Positions 49,444 through 64,000 of a stretch of 64,000 bases of DNA are shown here, piece by piece (the first letter of the stretch is position 1; each line of letters begins with the position of its first letter). This DNA is from Novosphingobium sp. ERN07 (lineage in GTDB: Bacteria; Pseudomonadota; Alphaproteobacteria; Sphingomonadales; Sphingomonadaceae). Under the pieces are notes generated by a model, which did no database searches, was not told the origin of the DNA, and worked only from the letters and a program-made list of their open reading frames with translations. Where the stretch lies: contig NZ_JABAID010000006.1 in assembly GCF_012641335.1 (NCBI RefSeq), forward strand, positions 124,001 to 188,000, given 5' to 3'. Position numbers and translations under genes: made by a program.

Positions 49444-50718
49444 TCAGATAGCAGGGATGGCCCGTTCTCCGGTGATGTTCAGGCCATAGCCTTCCAGCGC
49501 CACGAGGTTGTGGCGCGAATTGGTCAGCAGCACCATGTCGTGGATCCCAAGATCGGCAAGAATCTGCGCACCGATGCCATAGCTGCGCAGTTCCATATCA
49601 TGCCCGGCTGTGCCGCCAACTTCGCGGATGAGCTGTTCGGGATCGGTTGGCATCAACAGCACGATCACGCCCGCGCCCGCTTCGCCCATTTCTCCCATTG
49701 CGCGTTGCAGAATGCGCTTGCGCGGACCGGGCTGGCCCAGCACGTCGGACAGGACCGAGATCGAGTGCATACGCACCAGCGTCGGCTGGCCCGGAACGAT
49801 GGCACCTTTTTGCAGGACGAGATGCGCGGAGCCATCAATCTTGTTGCGATAGGTCTTGAGCGTCCAGTCGCCGCCGTAATCGGTGTGGAACGGTGCCTGA
49901 TTGACGCATTCGACTAGATGATCGTTGCGGCGACGGTATTCGATCAGATCGCGGATCGTGCCGATCTTCAGCCCGTGCTTGCGCGCAAATGGGATCAGAT
50001 CGTTGAGGCGCGCCATCGTGCCGTCGTCGTTCATGATCTCGCAGATTACGCCGGATGGATTGAGGCCGGCTAGGCGAGGGAGATCGACGGCCGCTTCGGT
50101 GTGTCCGGCGCGCACCAGCACGCCGCCATCGCGCGCGATCAGCGGGAAGACGTGGCCGGGCGTGACGATATCGTCGCGCGTCTTGGTGGCGTCCACCGCA
50201 ACCGCAACGGTGCGGGCGCGGTCTGCCGCCGAGATGCCGGTGTCCACGCCTTCGCGCGCTTCGATGGATACTGTGAAGGCCGTGCCGTGGCGCGTGCCAT
50301 TGTTGCGGCTCATCAGTTCAAGGCCAAGCTGGTTGCAGCGGTCTGCGGTGAGACACAGGCAGATCAGTCCGCGTCCGTGGGTGGCCATGAAGTTGATCGA
50401 TTCGGGCGTGGCCATCTGCGCCGGGATCAGCAGGTCGCCCTCGTTTTCGCGGTCTTCGTCATCCACCAGAATGACCATGCGGCCATTGCGCACTTCTGCG
50501 ATGATCTCTTCTACCGAAGCGAGTTCGAACTCGTCATCCTCGCTATCGTCCATTGCCCGTTCCAGCTTGGTCAGGGTATCAACCGTGGGATTCCAGTCGG
50601 GCAGTAGCGCATCACGCAAGGTGTTGGGATGCAACCCGGCCGCGCGGGCGAGGGCGGCCCGTGAAATGACCCGATCTTCGATGAGCTTGCGCGCACGCGC
50701 TACAATGTCCTGTGCCAT
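49444..50718 (-). CDS. ribB: 3,4-dihydroxy-2-butanone-4-phosphate synthase with N-terminal HTH and degenerate GTP cyclohydrolase II domain
   Basis: RibB converts ribulose 5-phosphate to the four-carbon precursor of riboflavin. The 424-residue protein has three parts. Residues 1-55 look like a lambda-repressor-type helix-turn-helix (ISRAALARAAGLHPNTLRDAL). Residues about 65-270 are the RibB domain with DDEDRENEGDL and the catalytic RAGHTEAAVDL. From about 280 comes a GTP-cyclohydrolase II-like domain that lacks the zinc Cys cluster (VRMHSISVLSDVLG in place of CxLTGD...RCDC). It keeps SYGIGAQIL but is probably inactive. It lies 43 bases upstream of cobU on the same strand and has its own terminator. 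Confidence 0.92.
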   Translation of the reverse strand: MAQDIVARARKLIEDRVISRAALARAAGLHPNTLRDALLPDWNPTVDTLTKLERAMDDSEDDEFELASVEEIIAEVRNGRMVILVDDEDRENEGDLLIPAQMATPESINFMATHGRGLICLCLTADRCNQLGLELMSRNNGTRHGTAFTVSIEAREGVDTGISAADRARTVAVAVDATKTRDDIVTPGHVFPLIARDGGVLVRAGHTEAAVDLPRLAGLNPSGVICEIMNDDGTMARLNDLIPFARKHGLKIGTIRDLIEYRRRNDHLVECVNQAPFHTDYGGDWTLKTYRNKIDGSAHLVLQKGAIVPGQPTLVRMHSISVLSDVLGQPGPRKRILQRAMGEMGEAGAGVIVLLMPTDPEQLIREVGGTAGHDMELRSYGIGAQILADLGIHDMVLLTNSRHNLVALEGYGLNITGERAIPAI

Positions 50719-50761: not shown

Positions 50762-51286
50762 TCACATTTGAGTGTTGATTTGTTTTAGCTGCAGCGGCAA
50801 TCCGGCAGCGACAAACACCACTTCGTCCGCGGCACTGGCTAGCTTCTGGTTGAGCCGGCCCGCTTCGTCGCGAAAGCGGCGCGCTAAAGCGTTTTCAGGC
50901 ACGATGCTCAAACCCACTTCATTGGCGATCAGCGCAATGGGAATGCGGCATTTGCGGATTGAGCGCAGCAGGGCGTTGCTGGCATTGGTCAGATCGTGAT
51001 CGCCAAGCATCAGGTTTGATAGCCATAGGGTGAGGCAATCCACAAGGATCGCGTCGGCTGTGGCGGGCGCCTCGTCGATAGCGCAGGGCAGGGTGATCGG
51101 GGCTTCTATGGTGTGCCAGCGCGGGCCTCTGTCTTGCTGGTGCCTGGCGATACGGTTGGCCATTTCCGCATCGCCTGCTTCTGCGGTGGCAATATAGGCA
51201 AGGCGGCCTTCGTGCGCTTCGATACGGCTTTGCGCATAGCGGCTTTTGCCCGACCGCGCACCGCCAAGCACCAGCAGGCTGGTCAT
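50762..51286 (-). CDS. cobU: Adenosylcobinamide kinase / adenosylcobinamide-phosphate guanylyltransferase
   Basis: CobU (CobP) phosphorylates adenosylcobinamide and transfers GMP to form GDP-cobinamide. The 174-residue protein has the P-loop VLGGARSGKSRYAQ at the start, the His-GMP region RIARHQQDRGPRW and VDCLTLWLSNLML. ANEVGLSIVPENALARRFRDEAGRLNQ is the family C-terminal block (NEVGLSIVPE is enough to recognise it). The start overlaps the cobQ stop by four bases. It is the last gene in the nine-gene leftward cob run. Confidence 0.95.
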   Translation of the reverse strand: MTSLLVLGGARSGKSRYAQSRIEAHEGRLAYIATAEAGDAEMANRIARHQQDRGPRWHTIEAPITLPCAIDEAPATADAILVDCLTLWLSNLMLGDHDLTNASNALLRSIRKCRIPIALIANEVGLSIVPENALARRFRDEAGRLNQKLASAADEVVFVAAGLPLQLKQINTQM

Positions 51287-52743
51287 CGCAATGTTCCTTG
51301 CGTCAGCGCCAAAAGACCATCGATATCAAGATGCTGTTCAAGCGCACTGGCCAGATCGTTCAGTGCGGCATCGACCAGCGCGCCATGATCTTGCCCTGAA
51401 CTTTGCACACCGATGCGGGTCAGTAGGGCCTTGCGCAGGTCGGGGCGCTCAAACAGCCCGTGGCAATATGTGCCCATGACGCGCCCATCGGCGCTGATCG
51501 CGCCATCCCGGCGTTGGCCTTCCAGCATGGCGAAGGGACGGGCCGTATCTGGCCCGCTGGTTTCGCCCATATGCATTTCGAAACCAGCGAACGCCGCACC
51601 CAACGCTTGTCCGGAAACGCGCAGCAGGGCCTTGCGCGGCGTCAGTTCGGTCGTCACGTTTAGCAGGCCAAGGCCGTTGATCTTGCCTGCAGGGCCTTCG
51701 ATGCCAAGCGGATCGGCAATTGTCCGGCCCAGCATCTGATAGCCGCCGCAAAGCCCCAGAATCATCCCGCCGCGCCGGTGATGCGCAAGGATGTCGATGT
51801 CCCAACCCTGCTGGCGCACGAAGGCCAGGTCAGCGATAGTGGCTTTCGTGCCGGGCAGAATGATCAGGTCGGCCTCTGCCGGGATCACTGACCCTGGCGG
51901 GATCATCGCCAGTTCGACATCCGGTTCCTGCCGCAGCGGATCAAGATCGTCGAAGTTGGCGATGCGCGGCAGCATCGGGCAGGCGATCAGCTTACGGGAA
52001 GTGGCACGTTGGGGCCTGCGTTCAAGTATAACCGCATCCTCGCTGGGCAATGTGGCGATGCACGGCAGCCACGGCACAAGGCCGAACCCGCGCCAGCCCG
52101 AAAGCTGCTCAATCGCGCCATAGCCATCCTCGAACAGCGCCGGATCGCCGCGAAACTTGTTGACGATGAAGCCGTGCACCATCGCCGCATCGGTAGAGTC
52201 GATAACCGTTCGCGTTCCCACCAGCGATGCGATCACCCCGCCGCGGTCGATATCGCCAACCAGCACCACCGGCACATCGGCAGCGCGGGCAAAGCCCATG
52301 TTGGCAATATCGCCCGCGCGCAGGTTTATCTCTGCCGGAGAGCCTGCACCTTCGACCATCACGATATCGCACCGGCTTTGCAGACGTTGCCAGCTTTCCA
52401 GCACTTCGGGCAGCAGCGTGCGTCTGCCTTCGCGAAAGTTCGCTGCGCCCAGCGTGCCGCGCACCTGCCCATGCACGATCAGTTGCGATGTATGGTCGGC
52501 CTGGGGTTTGAGCAGCACCGGGTTCATGTCGGTATGCGGTTCGACACGCGCGGCAAGGGCCTGAAGCGCTTGTGCGCGGCCAATCTCGCCGCCATCGATG
52601 GTCACGGCGGCATTGTTTGACATGTTCTGGGGCTTGAATGGCAAAACGCGCAGGCCCCGGTTGGACAGTGCGCGGCACAGGCCAGCGACCAGCACAGACT
52701 TGCCCACATCCGATCCGGTTCCCTGTAACATCAGGCCAGCCAT
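51283..52743 (-). CDS. cobQ: Adenosylcobyric acid synthase
   Basis: CobQ amidates four side chains of adenosylcobyrinic acid a,c-diamide with glutamine as nitrogen donor. The 486-residue protein has the N-terminal ATPase with GTGSDVGKSVLVAGLCR and FKPQNMSNNAAVT. A class I glutamine amidotransferase domain follows, with the nucleophile Cys in LGLCGGYQMLG and a terminal GTYCHGLFE. The ATG at 52743 follows GGAGGG and overlaps the end of cobD. The longer frame is not used. Confidence 0.96.
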   Translation of the reverse strand: MAGLMLQGTGSDVGKSVLVAGLCRALSNRGLRVLPFKPQNMSNNAAVTIDGGEIGRAQALQALAARVEPHTDMNPVLLKPQADHTSQLIVHGQVRGTLGAANFREGRRTLLPEVLESWQRLQSRCDIVMVEGAGSPAEINLRAGDIANMGFARAADVPVVLVGDIDRGGVIASLVGTRTVIDSTDAAMVHGFIVNKFRGDPALFEDGYGAIEQLSGWRGFGLVPWLPCIATLPSEDAVILERRPQRATSRKLIACPMLPRIANFDDLDPLRQEPDVELAMIPPGSVIPAEADLIILPGTKATIADLAFVRQQGWDIDILAHHRRGGMILGLCGGYQMLGRTIADPLGIEGPAGKINGLGLLNVTTELTPRKALLRVSGQALGAAFAGFEMHMGETSGPDTARPFAMLEGQRRDGAISADGRVMGTYCHGLFERPDLRKALLTRIGVQSSGQDHGALVDAALNDLASALEQHLDIDGLLALTQGTLR

Positions 52744-53663
52744 GCAATCCCTCCTGCAATTACCCAGCACAGCGCGCAGGCGCGGTGATAGACGCGCCTT
52801 GCCCGTATCAGCGCTTCCAGGCTCGCCTCACCGCCTTCGCCAATCCACGGTTTGTCCATGATCTCTCCGTCGTAGCTGGTTGGGCCTGCGAGACGGACAT
52901 TCAGCACACCGGCCATTGCCGCTTCGGGCCAGCCTGCGTTGGGCGAAGCATGTGCGTTGCGATAGCGCCAGCAGATTGTCCACCCGCCCGCTCCGCCCAG
53001 GCAGATCAACATCGCGGAAATCCTTGCAGGCGCGAAATTCAGCACGTCGTCCAGCCGTGCAGCGGCCCAGCCGAAATCGCGATAGGGTTCTTCCTTATGG
53101 CCGATCAGGCTATCAGCGGTGTTCACGGCTTTGACTATCCAGATGCCCGGAAGGCCTGCCATCAGCAGCCAGAACAGCGGGGCAACCACGCCATCGCAGA
53201 AGCTTTCCGCAAGGCTTTCGATGGCCGCGCGTGAAACAGCAGCTTGATTCATCGCTGCGGTATCGCGCCCTACGATCATCCCGACAGCAGTTCTTGCCGT
53301 CTCGATATCATCGGCCCGAAGCGCTCTGATCACCGGCACGACATGCTGGTCCAGACTGCGCTGCGCCAATGCGGGCCATGCCAGCAGCGCAATGATCAGC
53401 CATTCGGCGCTGCCCAGCGTTTGGGCAGCAAGCGTCAGCAGCAGCCCGCTACACCCTGAGACCGTCACAAGCGCCAGAACTATCACCACACCCCAGGCCT
53501 TGCGTGCGAGGCGGCTGCGATCAGTTCTGTTCCAGTGTCGGTCGCAAAGGGCGATCAGCCGCGCGAACGCGCCAACCGGATGTCCCACCACCGCGTAAAG
53601 CCGCACAGGCCAGCCAAGCGCAGCATCGATTGCCATCGCGGCCAGCGCCACCGGATCAGCCAT
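52731..53663 (-). CDS. cobD: Adenosylcobinamide-phosphate synthase (CobD/CbiB)
   Basis: This integral membrane enzyme attaches (R)-1-aminopropan-2-ol (phosphate) to adenosylcobyric acid. The 310-residue protein has several hydrophobic segments and family blocks AAIDAALGWPVRLY, then DIETARTAVGMIVGRDTA and AESFCDGVVAPLFW. YRDFGWAAARLDDVLNFAPAR follows with its conserved Asp and Arg residues, and NVRLAG lies near the C-terminus. The ATG at 53663 overlaps cobC; the stop overlaps cobQ by thirteen bases. Confidence 0.95.
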   Translation of the reverse strand: MADPVALAAMAIDAALGWPVRLYAVVGHPVGAFARLIALCDRHWNRTDRSRLARKAWGVVIVLALVTVSGCSGLLLTLAAQTLGSAEWLIIALLAWPALAQRSLDQHVVPVIRALRADDIETARTAVGMIVGRDTAAMNQAAVSRAAIESLAESFCDGVVAPLFWLLMAGLPGIWIVKAVNTADSLIGHKEEPYRDFGWAAARLDDVLNFAPARISAMLICLGGAGGWTICWRYRNAHASPNAGWPEAAMAGVLNVRLAGPTSYDGEIMDKPWIGEGGEASLEALIRARRVYHRACALCWVIAGGIAWLA

Positions 53664-54645
53664 CGGCCAACACCGCGTCCAGCCGCGCCAGCCCCGCATC
53701 GTCTGGTGGCAGGCCGATGCGCAGAAGGTCGGCATACTCCACGAAGGGTCGGGTCAGGATCTGGCGCTGGGCCAACCGTCCGAAAAGGCGGGCCGCATCC
53801 AGCGTGGTGACCAGCCGGAACAGCGGGCAATCGCCCGTTACGGGAAGGCCGTGGCGCAGCAGCACTGCGTCGAGTGCTGCCGCGTGGCGTACAAGGCTCT
53901 TCCGCGTCTGCGCGATCCAGCCGGGGTCGTCATAGGCCGCTGTGCCGAAAGCCAGCGCAGCAGTATGAACGGGCCAATCGCCAAGGCCTGCGCGCAAGCC
54001 GCAAAGCACTTCTGGCGGCGCGATGGTGAAGCCCAGTCGCAAGCCCGCAAGGCCAAAGAACTTGCCGAACGACCGCAGCACTATCAATCGTCGCCCTACC
54101 GCAACTGAGTTGGCAATGCTCCAGCCGGGATCGCAATCGGCAAAGGCCTCATCCACGATCAGCCAGCCGCCGTGCCGTTCCTGATAGTCGAGCAGCGCGA
54201 GCAGTTCCGCGTGCGATGACACACTGCCATCGGGGTTGTTTGGATTGCCGATCACCAGAACAGTGGCGCGCCGGGGAAGGGCGGACAGATCGGGAATCGC
54301 CTGAGCATGGTGGAAAGCCCTGCGATAGGTGCCATAGGACAGCGGTTGGTGCAGGCCGGGTAGGTTTAGCGCTCGCGCGATCTGGCGAAAGCCCGTCTCG
54401 CTGCCCGGCACCGCAGTGCACAGTGCAGGATCGCACCCGAAGTATCCCGCTGCCGCTCGTTCCAGTTGTGATATTGCCAGAGGGTCGGGTAGCGCGCGCC
54501 AGTCAACTTCCAGCGCGGTTGGTGGCTGCCAGCCGCGCGGATTGATCCCAGTCGAAAGATCCATCCAGTCGGCTGCCTGGCCACCATAGCGTTCGCAGGC
54601 CTCGGCCAGACGGCCACCATGATAGCTGAAGCCGTTGTTCATCAT
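53656..54645 (-). CDS. cobC: Threonine-phosphate decarboxylase (alpha-type CobC)
   Basis: This PLP enzyme decarboxylates L-threonine O-3-phosphate to aminopropanol phosphate, the linker of the nucleotide loop. The 329-residue aminotransferase-fold protein begins YHGGRLAEACERYGG, has STGINPRGWQP and IGNPNNPDGS, and the PLP-binding Lys in LRSFGKFFGLAGLRLG. Naming follows the Pseudomonas denitrificans system (Salmonella CobD). The ATG at 54645 overlaps the cobS stop (ATGA). Its stop lies eight bases inside cobD. Confidence 0.92.
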   Translation of the reverse strand: MMNNGFSYHGGRLAEACERYGGQAADWMDLSTGINPRGWQPPTALEVDWRALPDPLAISQLERAAAGYFGCDPALCTAVPGSETGFRQIARALNLPGLHQPLSYGTYRRAFHHAQAIPDLSALPRRATVLVIGNPNNPDGSVSSHAELLALLDYQERHGGWLIVDEAFADCDPGWSIANSVAVGRRLIVLRSFGKFFGLAGLRLGFTIAPPEVLCGLRAGLGDWPVHTAALAFGTAAYDDPGWIAQTRKSLVRHAAALDAVLLRHGLPVTGDCPLFRLVTTLDAARLFGRLAQRQILTRPFVEYADLLRIGLPPDDAGLARLDAVLADG

Positions 54646-55352
54646 ACTAGGACCAGCACGATCAAACCCGCCGTTTCGACCAGTTCGATGCCCGCGCCGT
54701 GCCCATCGCCTGATATCCCGCCGATCCGCTTGCGCAGCCACAGTGCCCACAATGGCAGCGCCACCACCGCGATGATCAGCATCGGGCTGAACAGTAAAGC
54801 CACGCCACTCCACGCCATCAGCCAGCACGCCAGCACCGGCCAGTTCGCGCCCTTGCGGAACATCGTGCCAAAGCCGTCATGCAGCGGCGGCAAAAGCAGC
54901 GTCCATGCCAGAGGGCCGACCCGCGCCAGAACTGGCGCCAGCACCAGCCATGCCGCATTCGCGCCCGCCAGCAAACATTGCAGCAAAACGAACTTCGCCA
55001 GCAGTTGCAGTGTGATGGCGACCATGCCGAAGCTGCCGATATGGGGATCGGCCAGCACTGCCGAAACACGCGAACGATCCGCATGAGCCGCGCCTGCAGC
55101 ATCGGCCATGTCGCCCAACCCATCAAGGTGTAGCGCGCCGGTAAGGCCAACCCATGCCGCCAGTCCCAGCAATGCGCCCAGCGCCGGATCGCGCATCGCC
55201 CCGACCAGCGCGGCTGCCCACACCCCGACCCCAACCACGCATCCAACCACCGGAAACCACCGGATAGCCTTGCCGTAATCCTCCGCGCTCACCGCAATCA
55301 CGGGCAGCGGCAGGCGCGTCATGAACTGCAATGCGAGAAGCAACGGCTTCAT
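54642..55352 (-). CDS. cobS: Adenosylcobinamide-GDP ribazoletransferase (CobS/CobV)
   Basis: CobS joins GDP-cobinamide and alpha-ribazole (phosphate) at the cytoplasmic membrane. The 236-residue protein starts MKPLLLALQFMTRLPLP, then has the hallmark TGALHLDGLGDMADA near 78, DPHIGSFGMVA, and five or six hydrophobic segments. RIGGISGDGHGA is a typical late motif. The ATG at 55352 overlaps the phosphatase stop; the stop overlaps cobC. The longest open frame begins 73 codons earlier but is not used. Confidence 0.94.
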   Translation of the reverse strand: MKPLLLALQFMTRLPLPVIAVSAEDYGKAIRWFPVVGCVVGVGVWAAALVGAMRDPALGALLGLAAWVGLTGALHLDGLGDMADAAGAAHADRSRVSAVLADPHIGSFGMVAITLQLLAKFVLLQCLLAGANAAWLVLAPVLARVGPLAWTLLLPPLHDGFGTMFRKGANWPVLACWLMAWSGVALLFSPMLIIAVVALPLWALWLRKRIGGISGDGHGAGIELVETAGLIVLVLV

Positions 55353-55927
55353 CCCAGCAGTCCTGCGCGCAAGCCAACGATCTGGCCGGTAGCAGCCGCG
55401 CCGGGCCAGACCTTCAGCGACAGCAATGCCCCATATGGCAGGTCGAACGCCCAGACAGCACGGTGATCGAGGCCGGTCAGCACGGCCACTGCCGCCCGCA
55501 TCGCGCCAGCGTGCGTCACCACAAGCGTGCCATCGTCCAGAGCGCCCAGCGCCGCGCCAACGCGCCGGCACAGGGCCGACCAGCGCTCCCCATCGGGCGG
55601 CGGGGAAGCATCGGGATCGTCCCAGAACCGCGCCAGATCATCGCTCGGAACAGTATCTGCCGAAAGCCCGTCCCACGCTCCGAAATCAAGCTCGCGCCAT
55701 CTTGGGTCGATGGCAAGGGGCACCCCGCGCATTGCTGCGAGAACTTCCGCACCGGCCAAGGCGCGCAGCAGATCGGAACTCACCACTCGCCTGATCGCTA
55801 GCCCCTCTGGCACCGCATCGCGCAAACCGCCGGTTGGATCGCACGGCGGCTCGTCCGTTTGACCCAGCATCAGTCCGGTGCGGCGGGGCGGTCCATGCCG
55901 CAGCAAATGAACGGTCCTTGCGCTCAC
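55349..55927 (-). CDS. Histidine phosphatase, probable alpha-ribazole phosphatase
   Basis: This 192-residue phosphatase of the RHG family probably removes phosphate from alpha-ribazole 5'-phosphate or from adenosylcobalamin phosphate in the nucleotide-loop pathway. The nucleophile motif is LLRHGPPRRTG near 9; REDFGAWDG-like LDFGAWDG and VTHAGAMRA contain the other active-site residues. In Salmonella this step is CobC. The role rests on its location: it overlaps cobS by four bases and the cobT stop by four. Confidence 0.85.
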   Translation of the reverse strand: MSARTVHLLRHGPPRRTGLMLGQTDEPPCDPTGGLRDAVPEGLAIRRVVSSDLLRALAGAEVLAAMRGVPLAIDPRWRELDFGAWDGLSADTVPSDDLARFWDDPDASPPPDGERWSALCRRVGAALGALDDGTLVVTHAGAMRAAVAVLTGLDHRAVWAFDLPYGALLSLKVWPGAAATGQIVGLRAGLLG

Positions 55928-56940
55928 AGGCTGCCCGCCACGGCCGCTTCGGCAAAAGTCGCCATGCCATTGTGCGTGGCCAGTGCCGCGCGGACGAGCG
56001 GCACTGCCATCGCTGCGCCCGATCCTTCACCCAGCCGCATCTCTAAGCGCAGCAATGGCTCCAGTCCGAACTGGTTCAGCAGGTACGCGTGGGCCTGTTC
56101 GGCAGAGCAGTGCCCAGCAAGGCAATGCTCGGAAAATCCCGGTTCTGCCGCAACCAGTGGTGCAATTGCTGCGCAGCAAATGAAGCCGTCCAGCAGGACT
56201 GGAATCCGCAGCATCCGCGCTGCCATGATCGCCCCCGCCATCGCCGCAATCTCGCGCCCGCCAAGGCGGCGCAAGGTTTCGAACGGGGTGGTGCAATGCG
56301 GTCCATGCACCGCGATAGCGCTTTCCACCGCCGCGATTTTTCGCGCAACACCGTCTAGATCCACCCCGCTGCCGCGCCCGCACCAGCCTTCAGCGCTGCC
56401 GCCAAAGGCCTGTAGGCACAGCGCGGCGGCAGGGGTGGTGTTGCCAATTCCCATTTCGCCCACCAGCAACAGATCGGTATCGGGTGTGACGACGGCGGCC
56501 CCGGCATTCAGTGCGGCAAGGCATTCGTCGGCGGTCATCGCCGGTTTGTGCGCGATATCGCCGGTCGGCCTGTTCAAGTCGAGCGCAACCACTGTCAGAT
56601 CTGCTCCGCAGGCCGCGGCAAGCTGGTTTATAGCCGCACCGCCTGCGCGAAAATTGCCGACCATCTGTGCGGTCACTTCGGTCGGAAAGGCGCTTACGCC
56701 CCGCGCCGCAACGCCGTGGTTTCCGGCAAAAACCGCCACGCACACCTTGTGCAAAGCGGGAAGGGCGGTGCCCTGCCAGCCCGCCATGAACAGTGCGATG
56801 TCTTCCAGCCGCCCCAGCGATCCGGCTGGCTTGGTCAGCACTTCCTGCCGCTCTGACGCAGCGGCAATCGCCGTTTTATCCGACTGAGGCAAAGCGTCCA
56901 GAGCCTGCGCGAATGTGCGTTCATCGTCGAACCGAATCAT
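55924..56940 (-). CDS. cobT: Nicotinate-nucleotide:dimethylbenzimidazole phosphoribosyltransferase
   Basis: CobT (CobU in P. denitrificans naming) makes alpha-ribazole phosphate from 5,6-dimethylbenzimidazole and nicotinate mononucleotide. The 338-residue protein has TKPAGSLGRLE near 38, VFAGNHGVAARGVSAFP near 75, and GEMGIGNTTPAAAL with the family catalytic surroundings. The C-terminal RLGEGSGAAMA is typical. The ATG at 56940 overlaps the DUF1636 stop by four bases. The longer frame upstream is not used. Confidence 0.95.
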   Translation of the reverse strand: MIRFDDERTFAQALDALPQSDKTAIAAASERQEVLTKPAGSLGRLEDIALFMAGWQGTALPALHKVCVAVFAGNHGVAARGVSAFPTEVTAQMVGNFRAGGAAINQLAAACGADLTVVALDLNRPTGDIAHKPAMTADECLAALNAGAAVVTPDTDLLLVGEMGIGNTTPAAALCLQAFGGSAEGWCGRGSGVDLDGVARKIAAVESAIAVHGPHCTTPFETLRRLGGREIAAMAGAIMAARMLRIPVLLDGFICCAAIAPLVAAEPGFSEHCLAGHCSAEQAHAYLLNQFGLEPLLRLEMRLGEGSGAAMAVPLVRAALATHNGMATFAEAAVAGSL

Positions 56941-57344
56941 GGAACGACGAACCCTTCGGGCGGGGTGCGGGTGATGAAGTGGCCTTTCACCCCTTGCGGC
57001 CATTCGCCATAAGGCACCACGCCTTCGGCGCTTTGCGCATGGCGCGTGGCATATTCAAGGATTGCCCGCGCCTGATCCTCGGCGGGGGCAAACCCGCCGA
57101 GGACATAGCCGATCTTGCCGCGCGCGCGTATATGCACTGCGCAGTGGCGCTGACACGCAAAGAGGCAGGCCATGTCCTGCACCTCCACGCCCGCCAGCGC
57201 TGGTTCTGCTTGCTGCACCGCGCGTAGGGCATCGGCCAGCAGCGCGCCGCCGCGCCGCCCCTGATCGTCTTCGCGCTGTTCGGCGGACAGGCGGCAGGTG
57301 GAACAGACCACCACCGCCGGTCCCGGTTCCACCTGCCGCAGCAT
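56937..57344 (-). CDS. DUF1636 metal-binding (ferredoxin-like) protein
   Basis: This 135-residue protein belongs to DUF1636, found with cobalamin genes in proteobacteria. VVVCSTCRLSAEQ holds a Cys-x2-Cys pair near residue 13, and MACLFACQRHCAVHI holds three further Cys, the layout of thioredoxin-fold [2Fe-2S] proteins. It ends TRTPPEGFVVP. Its function is not known to me; a redox step for corrinoid cobalt is a reasonable inference. It starts at the btuB stop (TAATG) and overlaps cobT by four bases. Confidence 0.8.
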   Translation of the reverse strand: MLRQVEPGPAVVVCSTCRLSAEQREDDQGRRGGALLADALRAVQQAEPALAGVEVQDMACLFACQRHCAVHIRARGKIGYVLGGFAPAEDQARAILEYATRHAQSAEGVVPYGEWPQGVKGHFITRTPPEGFVVP

Positions 57345-59293
57345 TAGAACCGGCTCCGCAGGCCGATATAGACCGTGCGGCCCAGCGCTCCGTATCCGCC
57401 TGCCGTTTCGTAACGCTTGTCGGCAATGTTCTCCACGCGGCCGTTGAACGTCAGCCCATCGGCCACGCGCCATTGCGCGCGAAGGTCCACCAGCCAGTAA
57501 TCGGGCAGAACTGTGGCACCACCTGCGCGGTCAAATGTCCGTCCGGCATAGCGGGCTGCCGCGCTGGCGCGCAGGCCTTGCGGTAGATCGACCCCGCCTT
57601 CGATATTGGCAAGGTGGCGCGGTACACGGGCAAGCTGCCGTCCCAGATCGGCGCTACCGGGCGAACGATCCTCTGCTGCGATCCAGCTATAGTTACCCGA
57701 TGCGAAAAGCACGCCCACTTGCGCTTGCGCTGCCAGTTCCAGCCCCTTTGCATGGGCCTTGCGCACGTTGGCGTAATAGCCGAAGCGGCTCGTCGTCGTG
57801 CCGGGGATGAAGCAGGCCGCAGGTAGGGTGCCGCTGGTGGGGCAATAAGCGAAGTCGATCAGATTGTCGGTATCGCGTTCGAACCATGTGGCAGAAGCGT
57901 GCAGCCCGTCGCCCAGCGTTTGCTCTGCCCCCACGGACCAGCCCTTGGCATTTTCAGGCTGCAATGCCGCAGATCCATAGATGCTGAAAAGCTGGTATAG
58001 CGACGGGGCCTTGAACCCTTCGTCATAGCTGGCGCGCAACACCGTGCGGCCCGCATTCGGCGTATAGACCGCGCCCGCGCTGAACACCGTGCTGCCGCCA
58101 AAGCGCGATTGGTCGTCATGGCGCACGCCGCCATCGATGGTCAGGCCCGCCAGCGGGGTTACGCGCAACTGGGCATAGATGCTGTTGGTGTCGGCTGACT
58201 GCGGCACCAGCGTATAAGCATTGGTGTTGTTGCCGGGCGATGCAGTGGTCATGCGCTGTTCTTCGCGCTCTGCGCCGAGCACCAGTTGCACCGCGTCGGC
58301 AATGTCGAACGATCCCTGATATTCGAAGCGGCGCACGCGGCCATGCGCATCGAAGTTCAGCGGGCGGATGGACCGTGCCGGATCGTAATTCTCGCGGTCG
58401 GTTTCGGTTTGCAACACGGCAAGGCGATTGCTGAACCGGCCATCAAGCAGGGCGAGGTTGACACCCACATAGCCGGTCCATTCGGTGGTCAGGCCATAGG
58501 CCTGCGAATCCCCGGACGTGCCGTCAAAATCGTTGCGGGCATCGGCCCAGTAGCCGCGCAGATCGACTGACAGGTCGGGGGTCAGTTTCAGCGTGGCGGT
58601 GCCGCTGGCGGCGGTGCGCTGATAGCCGTCAGGCTCGGTGCCGTTGCTGCGTGCCGAAATGCCCTGCGTGGTGAAGGTCGAACCGGCAACGCGCCAGTCC
58701 AGCAGCGATCCCGTGCCGCCGATACCGGCCTGTGCGTTGACCGTTTCGTGGGTGCCGGCCTCTACCGCCATGCTGCCTTCCAGCGGCTTTTCGGCGCGCC
58801 GCGTCAGCACGTTGACCACGCCACCGATGGCATCGCTGCCCCACAGGATCGATTGCGGCCCGCGAAGGATTTCCACCCTTTCGATATCGTCGATCAGCAG
58901 GTTGGAGAACGAATAGCCGCCCCCCGTGGCCGAAGGGTCGGAAATGCGCACGCCATCGATCACCATGACCGTCTGCGATGAATCCGCACCGCGAATGCGC
59001 ATGGAGGTTGCCGTGCCGAAGCCGCCATTGCGGGTCAGGCTGATGCCGGGGGTGCGCAGCAGCAGATCGGTCAGCGCAATCGGCTGCAATTGGCGAATGG
59101 CCACTTCATCCAGCACGGTAACAGTGGCCGAAACGCGGGATTGCTCCACCGGGCCGCGCAGGGCGGTAACCACGATAGAGGTATCTGGCGCTTCGCCGGG
59201 CACTGGCTCTTCGGCAAGCGCAGGCGATGCAATCAGGGCGAGAATGGACGCTAAGGTGGTTGCGGATACGACAGGGTATTGGGCAAAGCGCAT
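57344..59293 (-). CDS. btuB: TonB-dependent vitamin B12 receptor (BtuB-like)
   Basis: This outer-membrane receptor imports corrinoids with energy from TonB. The 649-residue protein has a signal peptide (cleavage near 27), a TonB-box region DTSIVVTAL, a plug domain with SMRIRGADSSQTVMVIDGVRI (in part) and ERVEILRGPQSILWGSDAIGG. A 22-strand barrel follows, ending VYIGLRSRF with a C-terminal Phe. It is the first gene of the run below a cobalamin riboswitch, which supports corrinoid specificity. GGGGAG precedes the ATG. Confidence 0.93.
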   Translation of the reverse strand: MRFAQYPVVSATTLASILALIASPALAEEPVPGEAPDTSIVVTALRGPVEQSRVSATVTVLDEVAIRQLQPIALTDLLLRTPGISLTRNGGFGTATSMRIRGADSSQTVMVIDGVRISDPSATGGGYSFSNLLIDDIERVEILRGPQSILWGSDAIGGVVNVLTRRAEKPLEGSMAVEAGTHETVNAQAGIGGTGSLLDWRVAGSTFTTQGISARSNGTEPDGYQRTAASGTATLKLTPDLSVDLRGYWADARNDFDGTSGDSQAYGLTTEWTGYVGVNLALLDGRFSNRLAVLQTETDRENYDPARSIRPLNFDAHGRVRRFEYQGSFDIADAVQLVLGAEREEQRMTTASPGNNTNAYTLVPQSADTNSIYAQLRVTPLAGLTIDGGVRHDDQSRFGGSTVFSAGAVYTPNAGRTVLRASYDEGFKAPSLYQLFSIYGSAALQPENAKGWSVGAEQTLGDGLHASATWFERDTDNLIDFAYCPTSGTLPAACFIPGTTTSRFGYYANVRKAHAKGLELAAQAQVGVLFASGNYSWIAAEDRSPGSADLGRQLARVPRHLANIEGGVDLPQGLRASAAARYAGRTFDRAGGATVLPDYWLVDLRAQWRVADGLTFNGRVENIADKRYETAGGYGALGRTVYIGLRSRF

Positions 59294-59517
59294 GATGCGG
59301 CTCCCCTCTTATACGAACGGCATGGACCTGCCGCTCCGTCCGGCGAAGGAAGCGCGTGCCATTGTCTGCGCCCGCAACAGGCGCAGTTCAAAGCATCGCT
59401 TCCCGCACGGGGCTTCCCGGCAGGCAGTGGCTGTCGTTGCGCGAGGGATTGTCCCACCCTTTGGAGGGAGGGAACCTCGAACGTCCGGTGCACCCTGCCC
59501 GAACGAAGAACGACTGC

Positions 59518-59685
59518 GTCAGGCAGGTCTCCTGGCTCACGGGTCAAGGCCGGTCCGGCCGCCTTCTCAGGACGGTGAAGTCCCAATGGCGTGAATGGCC
59601 GGTCGGCTCGCCGCTTACAGTTGCAGGGGCAGCCGGGGTTTTACACTCCGTTCCCTTTTGATCCCCTTTCGGGGAACCTGTCGCG
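59518..59685 (-). promoter_or_regulatory. Cobalamin riboswitch upstream of btuB-cob operon
   Basis: On the minus strand the RNA contains AAGGGAAC, then GTGTAAAACCCCGGCTGCCCC, the B12 box GCAACTGT (59617-59624) and GCCATTGGGAC. CCTGAGAAGG and AGCCAGGAGACCTGCC follow. The ends CAGGT and ACCTG can form P1. These are the conserved boxes of the adenosylcobalamin-type element. It lies about 225 bases before the btuB start. Binding would lower expression of the operon when corrinoid is plentiful. Confidence 0.95.
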
Positions 59686-59756
59686 GCGCTGCAGGTAGCG
59701 GCGCTTTTCGCGTGCTGCAAGTGCGAATGCTTGCGCCCTTCAAAGGCTTGGCATAT

Positions 59757-59945
59757 CAGGGCCTGTGTAACGGGTGCCCGAAAGGGCTTAATCGGGAAGT
59801 CCGGGCGGCGGTGAAAACCGCTTAATCCGGCACTGCTCCCGCAACTGTAACCGGTGAGCGCTTCGCCACGATGCCATTGGGATTCGTCCTGAGAAGGCGG
59901 CGCAAGCGCGATGATCCGGGAAGTCAGGAAACCGGCCTGTTATCG
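59757..59945 (+). promoter_or_regulatory. Cobalamin riboswitch upstream of the transporter-cobO-cobB genes
   Basis: On the plus strand GGTGCCCGAAAGGGCTTAATCG, quoted only in its GGTGCC core, leads to GGGAAGTCC, GGTGAAAACC, the B12 box GCAACTGT (59841-59848) and GCCATTGGG. CCTGAGAAGGCGG and GGGAAGTCAGGAAACCGGCC complete the set. It is a second, full cobalamin element pointing away from the first. The 70 bases between them must hold both promoters. About 245 bases separate it from the next start codon. Confidence 0.95.
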
Positions 59946-60191
59946 TCGTTTCTCTGCGCGGGCGGGATGCACCGGGCGGACGAAGGCTGATCCTTCGCGG
60001 ACGACACATGTGTGCGTTGTTGCCGAAGGGAGCCTGTGATGATCAGCACCTGACACCGTTCATCCGCGCTGCTCGCTGCGGCGCGTCAGCGGCTCGCCTG
60101 CGTCGGGATTGCCCGATGCTGCGCCGCATTCATCTCCCGCGCCCAGATTTTTCCCACGCTCAGGCATCTCTCACATTCAGGAGGCCGCCAG
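59946..60191 (+). other. Leader between the rightward riboswitch and its first gene
   Basis: This 246-base stretch follows the aptamer. CGAAGG/CCTTCG at about 59982-59998 forms a short hairpin; no T-run follows. A 64-codon open frame starts at 60008 but has no ribosome-binding site and crosses the start of the next gene in another frame, so I do not call it. The expression platform of the riboswitch should lie here. Confidence 0.45.
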
Positions 60192-60764
60192 ATGGTCCGT
60201 AATGCCCGTTTCGATCTCGCCGTGTTCGGCGCGCTCGCCCTCGTCATGCTTATTACCCGCACCCATTCGCTCAGCAATGTCGTCCACTTGCCCGATACCA
60301 GCCTTGCCAGCTTCTTCGTCCTCGGCTTCCTTGTTCGCCGCGCCGTCGCCTTTGGCGGCCTCTTCCTGCTAGGTTACGCGATTGATGTGATCGTAATCGG
60401 CTGGTTCGGCCAGTCCGATTTCTGCTTTACCCCAGCCTACTGGATGCTGGTCCCCGCCTATGGCACGATGTGGCTTGCGGGCCGTTTCGGTGCGGAAAAT
60501 CTGGGTGAACGCGCTTCTGCTCTACCGGCAATAGCGGTGCTTGTCACGGCTGCCACGCTGGTTTCGCAACTCTTCTCCAGCGGCGGTTTCTATTTCCTCG
60601 GCGGGCGCTTCTCTGATCCCACCCTGGCAGGCTTCATGCCGCGCCTTGCACGCTACTTCCCTACGACGCTCTATGCCACGCTGCTGTGGACGGGTGCTGC
60701 GGCGGGCATCGTTGCACTGCTCTCGGTCGCTCGCCCGCAACTGCGCGCAGGCAATCGCAAGTGA
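60192..60764 (+). CDS. Small integral membrane protein under cobalamin control (candidate corrinoid or cobalt transporter)
   Basis: I cannot place this 190-residue protein in a named family with certainty. It has about six hydrophobic segments (8-24, 38-66, 84-100, 113-133, 165-185) and no signal peptide. PDTSLASFFVLGFLVRR and FCFTPAYWMLVPAYGTMWLAGRFG are striking blocks. Its size, topology and place below a cobalamin riboswitch, with cobO overlapping its stop (GTGA), resemble ECF-type substrate-binding membrane components. Import of cobinamide, cobalt or a precursor is inference. AGGAGG precedes the ATG. Confidence 0.8.
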   Translation: MVRNARFDLAVFGALALVMLITRTHSLSNVVHLPDTSLASFFVLGFLVRRAVAFGGLFLLGYAIDVIVIGWFGQSDFCFTPAYWMLVPAYGTMWLAGRFGAENLGERASALPAIAVLVTAATLVSQLFSSGGFYFLGGRFSDPTLAGFMPRLARYFPTTLYATLLWTGAAAGIVALLSVARPQLRAGNRK

Positions 60765-61363
60765 CCAGCGTGGATGAAACGGCCCATCGCGAACGGGCGC
60801 GCAAGCACAAGGCGGTGGTCGATGCCAAAATCGCGGCCGCCAAGCGCGACAAGGGCTTGCTGCTGGTGCTTACCGGCAATGGCAAAGGCAAGTCCTCCAG
60901 CGCCTTCGGCATGGTGGCACGCACGCTCGGCTATGGCCGCAAGGCAGCCGTGTTCCAGTTTATCAAGGGTGCTGAAAACATCGGTGAACGGGCTTTCTTC
61001 TCGGCCCACCCAGATGTCATCTGGGAAAAGTGTGGCGAAGGCTTCACCTGGGAAACCCAGGACCGCAGCCGAGACATAGCCGCCGCCCGCGCGGGTTGGG
61101 AGAAGGCGAAAGCGGCTCTCTCCGATCCCGGCATCAGCCTCGTGGTGCTGGATGAACTTACCTATCTCGTGACCTACCGATACCTTGGGTTGGACGAGAT
61201 CATGCCCGCGATAGAGGCACGTCCCGAAATGCAGCATGTTGTCATCACTGGCCGCGCTGCCGACGATGCGCTGATTGCTGCGGCGGATACGGTCAGCGCG
61301 ATCCGCGACGTGAAGCACGCCTTTCGCGATGGTGTGCGCGCGCAGGAAGGGATCGACCGTTGA
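60761..61363 (+). CDS. cobO: Corrinoid adenosyltransferase (CobO/BtuR type)
   Basis: CobO transfers the adenosyl group of ATP to Co(I) of corrinoids. The 200-residue protein has the P-loop LLVLTGNGKGKSSSA near 33, FIKGAENIGER and WEKCGEGFTWETQDRSRD near 87. VVLDELTYLVTYRYL and HVVITGRAADDALI follow, all typical of this family. The GTG at 60761 overlaps the preceding stop (GTGA) and gives the family length; the longest frame starts earlier. Its own stop overlaps the cobB TTG. Confidence 0.95.
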   Translation: MTSVDETAHRERARKHKAVVDAKIAAAKRDKGLLLVLTGNGKGKSSSAFGMVARTLGYGRKAAVFQFIKGAENIGERAFFSAHPDVIWEKCGEGFTWETQDRSRDIAAARAGWEKAKAALSDPGISLVVLDELTYLVTYRYLGLDEIMPAIEARPEMQHVVITGRAADDALIAAADTVSAIRDVKHAFRDGVRAQEGIDR

Positions 61364-62649
61364 ACGCGGCAGCCTGTCCGGCGCTGATGGTCAGCGCGCC
61401 GGCTTCGGGACAGGGAAAGACCACCGTTACCGCGGCGCTTGCCCGCCGTCACCGGCAGGCAGGGCGGCGGGTGCGGGTGTTCAAGTGCGGGCCGGATTTC
61501 CTTGATCCGATGATACTGGAGCGGGCCAGCGGCGCGCCGGTCCATCAGCTTGACCTGTTCATGTGCGGCGAGGCGCAATGCCGCAGGCTTCTGCGCGAAG
61601 CGGCACAGGACGCGGACATCATCCTTGTGGAAGGGGTGATGGGCCTGTTCGATGGCAAGCCCTCCGCCGCCGATCTTGCGGCGCGGTTCGGGTTACCGGT
61701 GCTGGCGGTGATCGATGGCAGCGCGATGGCGCAGTCTTTCGGGGCCTTGGCGCATGGCCTTGCCAGCTACCGGTCCGATATCCGCGTGGTGGCGGCGCTG
61801 GGCAACCGGGTGCGCAGCGAACGTCATGCCGAAATGCTGGCCGAAAGCCTGCCGCCCGGCCTGCACTGGCTGGGGACGCTGCCGCCTGATGAACAGGCGG
61901 CGCTGCCAGAGCGGCACCTGGGGCTGGTGCAGGCAGGCGAGATCGATGATCTGGACGCGCGGATCGACCGCGCTGCCAGCAACCTTTCGGATGTCGCATT
62001 GTGGTTGCCCGATCCGGTTCCCTTCGCGGATTGCGAGGGGCCGGATTTCGGGCAAAATCTTGCCGGACGGCGCATCGCCGTGGCGCGCGACGCGGCCTTT
62101 GCCTTTATCTATCGTGCCAATATCGGCTGTCTTGAGGCGATGGGGGCGCAGATCACGTTCTTTTCGCCGCTGGCCGATTTTTCGCTGCCGGAATGCGATG
62201 CCCTGTGGCTGCCGGGCGGTTACCCCGAACTACATCTTGACCGTCTTTCTGCGAACCACGCGATGGCACAAAGCATTCGCGCCCATCATGCCGCAGGCAA
62301 GACCATTCTCGCTGAATGCGGCGGTATGCTCTATTGCCTTGATCAGATTGATGACGGGAAGGGGCATCGCGCACCAATGCTGGGGCTGATGCCGGGAGCG
62401 GCGACACTTCAACCACGCTTGGCAGCGCTGGGACCGCAGGCGATCGATTTGCCGAATGGCGCGCTGCGTGGCCACACGTTCCACTATTCCCGGCTTGAAA
62501 CCACGCTCGCTCCGCATGTGCGCGCGCAAACGCCTGAGGGAAGGCCCGGCGAAGCCATGTTCCGTCTGGGATCGCTGTGGGCCAGCTATTTCCACGGCTA
62601 TTTCCCATCGGCACCATCAGCAGTTGCGTCAATTTTAACCGGAGGATGA
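61360..62649 (+). CDS. cobB: Cobyrinic acid a,c-diamide synthase
   Basis: CobB amidates the a and c side chains of (hydrogeno)byrinic or cobyrinic acid with glutamine and ATP. The 429-residue protein has the N-terminal ATPase motif VSAPASGQGKTTVTAALAR and FKCGPDFLDPMIL. The C-terminal glutamine amidotransferase has its Cys in LAECGGMLYCLDQ and a late FHGYFPSAP. The TTG at 61360 overlaps the cobO stop and has GGAAGGG upstream. No corrin-ring enzymes lie nearby to supply its substrate. Confidence 0.95.
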   Translation: MNAAACPALMVSAPASGQGKTTVTAALARRHRQAGRRVRVFKCGPDFLDPMILERASGAPVHQLDLFMCGEAQCRRLLREAAQDADIILVEGVMGLFDGKPSAADLAARFGLPVLAVIDGSAMAQSFGALAHGLASYRSDIRVVAALGNRVRSERHAEMLAESLPPGLHWLGTLPPDEQAALPERHLGLVQAGEIDDLDARIDRAASNLSDVALWLPDPVPFADCEGPDFGQNLAGRRIAVARDAAFAFIYRANIGCLEAMGAQITFFSPLADFSLPECDALWLPGGYPELHLDRLSANHAMAQSIRAHHAAGKTILAECGGMLYCLDQIDDGKGHRAPMLGLMPGAATLQPRLAALGPQAIDLPNGALRGHTFHYSRLETTLAPHVRAQTPEGRPGEAMFRLGSLWASYFHGYFPSAPSAVASILTGG

Positions 62650-62740: not shown

Positions 62741-64000
62741 ATGCGTCGTCTCATTGTTTCCATTCTCTGCGCCACGGCGCTCGTTCCGATTTCCGCACAT
62801 TCGGCAGAAGCAGAAGCTGATGCGGAAACCGGCGCAGACGCACGCACCATAGTCGTTACCGGGGCGAAAAGCGCAGCGACCACTTCGACCAAGACCGACA
62901 CGCCTATTGTCCAGATTCCGCAGCCCATCACGGTGATTGATGATAGCGTGTTTCTGGCGCAGGGTGCGGTGAGCATTGGCGATACGCTGAACTACGTTTC
63001 AGGCGTCACGGCCAATCCCTATGGCCCCGATAGCCGCGTGGACGGCGCTTTCGTGCGCGGGATCAATGCCCTTCAGTTTCGCGACGGGATGCGCGATATC
63101 TTCAGCTATTACGCCAGCATCCGCGCCGATCCATACAATTTTGATCAGGTCGAACTGGTGCGCGGTCCCGCTTCGGTGCTGTTCGGGCAGGGCGCGCTGG
63201 GCGGCATCATGAACCTTGTGTCAAAGCGGCCTGAGTTCGAGACGCGCGGCGAAGTTTCGCTGCGCTATGGCTCCTTCGACCGCAAGGAAGCCCTGTTGGA
63301 CCTTACGGGCCCGCTGGCCGACGGTGTGGCGGCGCGCGTTGTGGCGCGGGTTCGCGATGCGAATACGCAGACGGATTACGTGCCCGACGATCGCGTGATG
63401 GTTTCACCCTCGATCACGTTCAAGCCTTCGTCCGACACGACGTTCACGCTGATCGGCCTGTATCAGGAGGACGACGGCGGTTCCACGGCGCAGTTCCTGC
63501 CGCTCGTCGGCACGATTCTGCCCAATCCCAATGGCAAGCTGGCCAACAGCCTGTTCGTGGGCAAGCCGGGCTGGGATCGATACGATGGCCGCCTGCTGCA
63601 AGGCACGGCGCTGCTGGAACATCGGTTTGACGAGAATGCCCGCATCAATCTGAAGGCACGCTATATCGACAGCGATCTGACCTATTTCACGCACTACCCC
63701 GACAATTACAGCAATCCGACCAACCCCTTCCTTGATGCCGATCAGCGGATCATGGGGCTGTATGTCGATGGCAGCATCGCGCGGATGGAGATTTTCTCTA
63801 CCGACAACAACCTGCAGCTTGATTTCAACACGGGTTCTTCCGTCCGTCACACGGTGCTGACGGGTATCGATTACGCAGCCAACTCCGTTCACAAGACCGG
63901 CGGCTTTGCCTACGAAACGTTCGATATCTACGATATCGATTATGCTGCCTTGTCAAACTACGGCGGCGGGCTTCCGACGCCGACCTACATTGCCGAAGAT
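62741..64000 (+). CDS. TonB-dependent siderophore receptor (partial, C-terminus beyond window)
   Basis: The first 420 codons of an outer-membrane receptor are visible. A signal peptide (MRRLIVSILCATALVPISAHSA, cleavage near 22) precedes a TonB-box-like TIVVTG. The plug has VQIPQPITVIDD, RGINALQFRDGMRD and FDQVELVRGPASVLFGQGALGG. The barrel starts with LVSKRPEFETRGEVSLRYGSFDR in part. The spacing of the QIPQPITVI and FGQGALGGIMNLVSKRP motifs is that of ferric-siderophore (FhuA/FpvA-like) receptors rather than BtuB. No siderophore synthesis gene is in the window, so it may use foreign siderophores. Confidence 0.92.
   Translation, partial: MRRLIVSILCATALVPISAHSAEAEADAETGADARTIVVTGAKSAATTSTKTDTPIVQIPQPITVIDDSVFLAQGAVSIGDTLNYVSGVTANPYGPDSRVDGAFVRGINALQFRDGMRDIFSYYASIRADPYNFDQVELVRGPASVLFGQGALGGIMNLVSKRPEFETRGEVSLRYGSFDRKEALLDLTGPLADGVAARVVARVRDANTQTDYVPDDRVMVSPSITFKPSSDTTFTLIGLYQEDDGGSTAQFLPLVGTILPNPNGKLANSLFVGKPGWDRYDGRLLQGTALLEHRFDENARINLKARYIDSDLTYFTHYPDNYSNPTNPFLDADQRIMGLYVDGSIARMEIFSTDNNLQLDFNTGSSVRHTVLTGIDYAANSVHKTGGFAYETFDIYDIDYAALSNYGGGLPTPTYIAED

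Follow-up and report, generated by a model that had tools for sequence, protein, structure and literature searches.

Background

The closest described system to the gene considered here is BtuM of Thiobacillus denitrificans (BtuM_Td), for which a crystal structure (PDB 6FFV), binding data and a growth assay have been published (PMC6072759). As described there, BtuM_Td supports B12-dependent growth, on cyanocobalamin and also on hydroxycobalamin. It binds cobalamin and cobinamide (cobinamide at ~0.6 uM) with the corrin held base-off, and it removes cyanide from cyanocobalamin. The support offered in that account consists of growth, binding and decyanation rather than a flux assay (PMC6072759). 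Cys80 is reported to be invariant, to be the axial cobalt ligand and to be required for growth. His28 is also described as conserved, and the variants H28A, Y85L and R153A retain binding and decyanation (PMC6072759). Because these variants still bind and decyanate, His28, Tyr85 and Arg153 are not strict criteria for a BtuM. In the same report, btuM and btuR are co-located in T. denitrificans and in the majority of the other host organisms, the hosts of BtuM homologues have no ECF module, with one exception, and BtuM is put forward as the option open to bacteria that lack BtuCDF (PMC6072759).

Two other systems bear on the comparison. The S-components of ECF transporters, e.g., RibU, FolT and ThiT, share the fold of BtuM. 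The BtuCDF ABC importer has the same expected class of cargo, but it is a multiprotein, ATP-driven system (as described in PMC6072759).

The btuM-cobO-cobB operon and its surroundings

The sequence analyzed, termed the window, is a stretch of 64,000 nt from Novosphingobium sp. ERN07. The host genome is a 4.69 Mb draft of 76 contigs that is rated 100% complete. The gene at positions 60192–60764 (+ strand) is an open reading frame of 190 aa with an ATG start. An AGGAGG ribosome-binding site is present in the sequence at 60179–60184 (+), 7 nt 5' of the ATG. The gene is designated btuM, and its product is a predicted solitary, S-component-like importer of corrinoid (vitamin B12) in which Cys78 is the predicted cobalt ligand. 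The btuM TGA stop codon (60762–60764) and the GTG start of cobO (60761) have four bases in common. Locus cobO/btuR (60761–61363, +) encodes a corrinoid adenosyltransferase, as identified by PF02572 (E 1.9e-58) and the NCBIfam model cobA, and represents the predicted trapping step. The cobO/cobB junction is likewise a four-base overlap. The cobB assignment (61360–62649, +) is from PRK01077 (433 bits, cut-off 254) and a CobB tree.

A BtuB-type TonB-dependent receptor gene is on the opposite strand (57344–59293, -). Its best model is TIGR01779, with 301 bits against a cut-off of 599.7, and the product is the predicted outer-membrane step. Genes for late corrinoid assembly follow at 50762–57473 (-). 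They comprise a DUF1636 gene and, by best NCBIfam model, cobT, cobC phosphatase, cobS, threonine-phosphate decarboxylase, cobD/cbiB, cobQ and cobU, where the phosphatase and decarboxylase models score below their own cut-offs. At the far end of the corrinoid cluster, past cobU, is a gene for a RibB/RibA-type riboflavin synthesis protein (49447–50718, -), the RibB part of which scores above its model cut-off. On the other side, a ferrioxamine-receptor-like TonB-dependent receptor gene begins 3' of cobB (62741–64000; best model FoxA, below cut-off) and extends beyond the end of the window.

The btuM-cobO-cobB unit is headed by a cobalamin riboswitch (RF00174) at 59755–59954 (+), which matches the full-length model (1–189) with 98.3 bits (gathering threshold 31.5) and E 2.6e-23. 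The distance from the end of the aptamer to the btuM start codon is 237 nt. A second cobalamin riboswitch (59505–59696, -; 120.2 bits) heads the divergent btuB and corrinoid-assembly cluster. The window operon also has cobB, and btuM has its own riboswitch opposite that of btuB. Abundant cobalamin would be expected to turn the btuM unit off. The 271 nt btuM leader folds no better than shuffled sequences (z 0.25), and no terminator-like site was found between the aptamer and the start codon. The sole such site, at 59634–59650, is 5' of the aptamer (1 found against 0.8 expected).

Identity of the 60192–60764 product

The protein matches no Pfam family at E <= 1; hence it has no PF01032 (BtuC/FecCD), CbiM, CbiN, CbtA or CbtB match and no additional domain. 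The CbiM, CbiN, CbtA and CbtB models of NCBIfam also gave no match. Its best NCBIfam match is a lipoprotein signal peptidase, below cut-off (13.6 bits, E 0.039). A phmmer comparison with PDB sequences gave one strong match, 8c7p/8ovv, 'Cobalamin ABC transporter', with E 4.2e-36 over residues 6–181 of the 190. The titles of these entries are 'Tagless BtuM in complex with cyano-/hydroxycobalamin'. The chain is taken to be BtuM_Td, since His28, Asp67, Cys80, Tyr85 and Arg153 are found at their published numbers in the alignment. No paper mentioning 8C7P was found.

Structure modeling agrees with the sequence match. An AlphaFold model made from 15 natural sequences has a mean pLDDT of 80.7 and a pTM of 0.81. 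It displays six main helices (residues 5–27, 35–47, 51–72, 83–104, 108–127 and 145–180) and two short ones. When the predicted model is compared with the BtuM structure by Foldseek, the result is E 8.9e-07, TM 0.76 and 41% identity. By VIA, the two BtuM-cobalamin structures have Z scores of 18.3 and 18.1, and the next 12 rows are all ECF transporters (Z 8.3 to 11.3) among the 50 matches listed, to which the comparison is confined, such that families beyond these could still match. RibU, FolT and ThiT have the same fold with Z 9.2 to 11.3 but are only 7–12% identical in sequence; the window protein differs from them in its predicted cobalt-ligating cysteine and in a genome that has no EcfT above cut-off.

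The 60192–60764 product is a clear relative of BtuM as judged from the sequence and the predicted model, and no evidence against this identity was found. It resembles BtuM_Td in length, in the six-helix S-component fold, in an identity of about 40% over nearly the whole chain, in the Cys/Asp/Tyr/Arg pocket residues, in the linked adenosyltransferase gene and in that no EcfT was found. The preliminary description, made from the DNA letters, had a 190-residue membrane protein of six segments that lies below a B12 riboswitch, overlaps cobO and is not BtuC, CbiM, CbiN, CbtA or CbtB. The open reading frame, the six main helices, the same-strand riboswitch, the four-base overlap and the lack of a Pfam family bear out each of these features. 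The check for relatedness to S-components that it proposed, run here with Foldseek and VIA, leads to BtuM and then to ECF S-components. That description also proposed a poorly described transporter of corrinoid, cobalt or 5,6-dimethylbenzimidazole (DMB). The corrinoid part is upheld by homology and fold. The family is not poorly described in view of the published structure, binding and growth data, and cobalt and DMB find no support as cargo. BtuM was not among the families that the preliminary description weighed. The window protein is a further member of the already characterized BtuM family, with small lineage features. The assignment gives a name to a product that neither Pfam nor NCBIfam recognizes and that annotation may for this reason leave as hypothetical. 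A literature search found no paper that joins BtuM with Novosphingobium, and nothing on the topic of Novosphingobium B12 auxotrophy.

Pocket residues

In the stretches of the alignment that matter here, each residue number in the BtuM_Td chain is two higher than in the window protein. Cys80, Asp67, Tyr85 and Arg153 of BtuM_Td correspond to Cys78, Asp65, Tyr83 and Arg151. Cys78, Asp65 and Tyr83 are unvarying both in 15 sphingomonad sequences (window included) and in the window protein plus 21 distant copies from across the phylum, which have 28–42% identity. The equivalent of Arg153, Arg151, is variable among the distant copies. Three of the four published pocket residues other than Cys80 (His28, Asp67, Tyr85 and Arg153) are present. 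Unlike BtuM_Td, the window protein has Ser26 (60267–60269) in place of His28. A serine is found at this position in 14 of the 15 sphingomonad sequences and a histidine in all 21 distant copies, which looks like a change of the sphingomonad lineage. The adjoining His25 is invariant in the 15 sphingomonad sequences.

Occurrence in the genus

Matches to BtuM at E <= 1e-3 are found in 27 of 195 genomes of the genus. A same-strand cobalamin riboswitch is upstream of btuM in all 27, and cobO is directly 3' of btuM in 25 (the exceptions are G010 and G080). This answers the question raised in the preliminary description of whether homologues are near cob genes or below riboswitches elsewhere. A chance open reading frame is rejected by conservation in the same context in these 27 genomes. 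Among 14 relatives of the gene with a named source, 10 (the nine best included) are from Novosphingobium, 2 from Sphingobium and the others from Citromicrobium and Alteriqipengyuania. The 15 close sequences and the 27 genomes overlap and are not independent sets.

A proposed import route

No CbiQ/EcfT (PF02361) is present above the Pfam cut-off in any of the 27 BtuM genomes, in a search confined to the EcfT/CbiQ component of the module. The sole weak CbiQ match is in the window's own genome. It is a 50-residue fragment with 21.5 bits, below cut-off and with an internal stop, and is judged to be noise; an open reading frame that overlaps it, whether or not in the same frame, has no CbiQ match in Pfam. 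An ECF-dependent S-component was dropped as an explanation on this basis. With no EcfT above cut-off, BtuM is therefore probably a solitary corrinoid importer, and CobO probably traps its cargo.

A route may be proposed as follows. Corrinoid would pass the outer membrane via the neighboring BtuB-type receptor, if corrinoid is indeed the substrate of that receptor. BtuM would bind it on its periplasmic side, where Cys78 would act as axial ligand of the cobalt and the corrin would be held base-off. Passage across the inner membrane would involve neither an ECF module nor an ATPase and would probably be facilitated diffusion. The movement of BtuM could be an S-component-like toppling without ATP, following the proposal for BtuM_Td (PMC6072759). 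CobO would then adenosylate the incoming corrinoid, which may trap it. Binding, decyanation and transport by the window BtuM are inferred by analogy with the T. denitrificans protein. Taken as a whole, a BtuM that acts as a solitary corrinoid importer with trapping by CobO, in a Novosphingobium-like salvager, is with high confidence the best explanation of the locus.

A probable second importer and the predicted salvage of corrinoids

A third cobalamin riboswitch (43918–44113) heads a btuBFCD-like operon on the same contig (C56:43918–49004, equal to L022 1919–7005). The operon is at 43.9–49.0 kb, 80 kb before the window start at 124,001. Its genes encode a BtuB-like receptor, a periplasmic binding protein, a FecCD permease and an ATPase. 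The permease has BtuC as its best NCBIfam model with 191 bits (cut-off 334), and the best model of the ATPase is that of a haem transporter, with BtuD lower down; the btuBFCD name is for these reasons largely from the riboswitch and gene order. The window BtuM itself differs from this type of importer in that it has no PF01032 match. The statement in the preliminary description that no BtuCDF is present holds for the window but not for the genome, and the argument from absence fails. Since a BtuC-type operon is in the genome, the cell would not have to rely on BtuM for B12, and BtuM probably provides an additional path through the inner membrane.

A BtuC 71–100% identical to that of the operon is present in 25 of the 27 BtuM genomes, and the other two have one of 47% and 51%. 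Replacement of BtuCDF by BtuM is rejected for the genus on these numbers. A BtuC of at least 70% identity is also present in 17 of 20 BtuM-less genomes compared. BtuM and BtuCDF are neither exclusive nor evidently linked in this sample of 27 and 20 genomes. In the genus BtuM is nearly always added to BtuCDF (25/27), which makes a division of substrates between the two a testable question.

Neither CobN nor CbiC/CobH has a match in the window's genome. The organism is predicted from its gene content to be a corrinoid salvager, because CobN and CbiC/CobH are missing and the late assembly genes are present.

CobB and incomplete corrinoids

The presence of cobB in the operon suggests another division of labor. 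The protein would be a BtuM by descent but specialized for incomplete, base-less corrinoids (cobinamide, cobyric acid or cobyrinic acid), which CobB and CobO would amidate and adenosylate, with complete cobamides left to BtuCDF. This is unlikely. The substrate of CobB is reported to be cobyrinate or hydrogenobyrinate (PMC8123684); a non-producer would thus have to import it. Unless amidation-poor corrinoids are imported, it is hard to see what CobB would act on where the ring is not made. A second importer also needs a reason where a close BtuC is present, as in 25 of the 27 BtuM genomes. The cobinamide binding and base-off corrin described for BtuM_Td (PMC6072759) are in line with such a cargo, but so is growth on cyanocobalamin in line with a complete one (PMC6072759), and a close BtuC is as common without BtuM (17/20).

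An operon-type CobB is present in 25 of the 27 BtuM genomes with 66–100% identity; in G031 it is in two pieces (76% and 64%), and in G067 the match has a reported internal stop. Of the remaining two, G064 has none and G066 has one of 39% only. Three of the 20 BtuM-less genomes have an operon-type CobB (G011, G020 and G026). BtuM and CobB are thus not always together, and the Fisher p of 6e-8 for 25/27 versus 3/20 is a description and not a test, given related genomes and operon linkage. CbiC/CobH is absent in 21 of the BtuM genomes, 19 of which have an operon-type CobB, whereas any CobB is present in 2 of 12 BtuM-less genomes examined that lack CbiC/CobH. This contrast among non-producers favors incomplete corrinoids as the cargo; operon linkage alone would also yield the association, and the comparison rests on 20 of 168 BtuM-less genomes, those listed. 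The cobB loci of G011, G020 and G026 (L026, L027 and L028) have one riboswitch, no btuM and no cobO, with a btuB-type gene in two of them, and are read as the loss of a block. These three genomes, and G064 and G066 with btuM but no operon-type CobB, speak against a fixed pair and against the specialized reading.

Another CobB type, 39–42% identical, has CbiC/CobH as a near neighbor (about 6 kb away at most) in 11 of the 14 CobH-bearing genomes; G066 has this type without CobH. In a CobB tree of 20 rows (10 operon-type, 4 of the other type and 6 distant ones found near btuM), the operon type and the four sampled members of the other type are in separate clades. The tree cannot show a CobB type special to BtuM because the distant rows were chosen by proximity to btuM. 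In four CobH-bearing genomes (G037, G044, G082 and G128), the operon CobB is retained together with one of the other type, which favors the specialized reading. In G008 and G080 CobH is present with the operon-type CobB only, and a ring-pathway role is possible there. No PDB sequence matched CobB. The cbiA/cobB gene is reported in 46% of precursor salvagers (PMC6461909), so that the puzzle of CobB is wider than the btuM locus. A still more specific proposal, in which BtuM, CobO and CobB form a module dedicated to taking up and repairing incomplete, base-less corrinoids as far down as cobyrinic acid while BtuCDF handles complete cobamides, is likewise unlikely. If it is true, the cysteine-ligated base-off pocket would be the fit of BtuM to substrates without a lower ligand.

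A solitary corrinoid importer of the BtuM family is also preferred over a membrane protein that serves decyanation or corrinoid sensing and does not itself transport. The S-component fold is common to receptor proteins (as stated in PMC11109136) and BtuM_Td does strip cyanide, but it also supports growth on hydroxycobalamin, where decyanation is unneeded (PMC6072759), and no other domain was found by Pfam in the 190 residues; a non-transporting role is very improbable. A carrier of cobalt or DMB, compatible with a gene below a cobalamin riboswitch and with the same general fold in the cobalt S-component CbiM (5x3x_M, Z 8.3, 7% identity), is rejected as scarcely credible, since BtuM is far closer (Z 18, about 40% identity), a corrin-ligating cysteine is predicted, and in a genome with no CobN or CbiC/CobH no newly made corrin ring would be available to take up free cobalt.

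Distant copies

Across the phylum, 22 btuM copies are found in 19 of 398 genomes, with that of the window included. A cobO gene is near btuM in 8 of 19 stretches from the 18 other genomes. A cobalamin riboswitch is present in 9 of 10 distant stretches scanned, one of which (L080) has it on the strand opposite btuM. At several distant loci btuM follows a BtuB-type receptor gene, unlike in the window.

One branch of BtuM (L088, L089 and L092) has a three-residue insertion before the cysteine, with FW in the insert and HYC at the cysteine. A histone-deacetylase-family gene and lptD are nearby and none of the cob queries is near; L089, the one locus of the three that was scanned, has no cobalamin riboswitch. 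Genome G478 has two adjacent btuM genes in one cobalamin cluster and a third elsewhere (L078 4202–5352 and L079 6404–6949). Genome G554 (L080) has two btuM genes on one contig, one of which adjoins cobO-cobB. The cysteine is kept in all five btuM copies of these two genomes.
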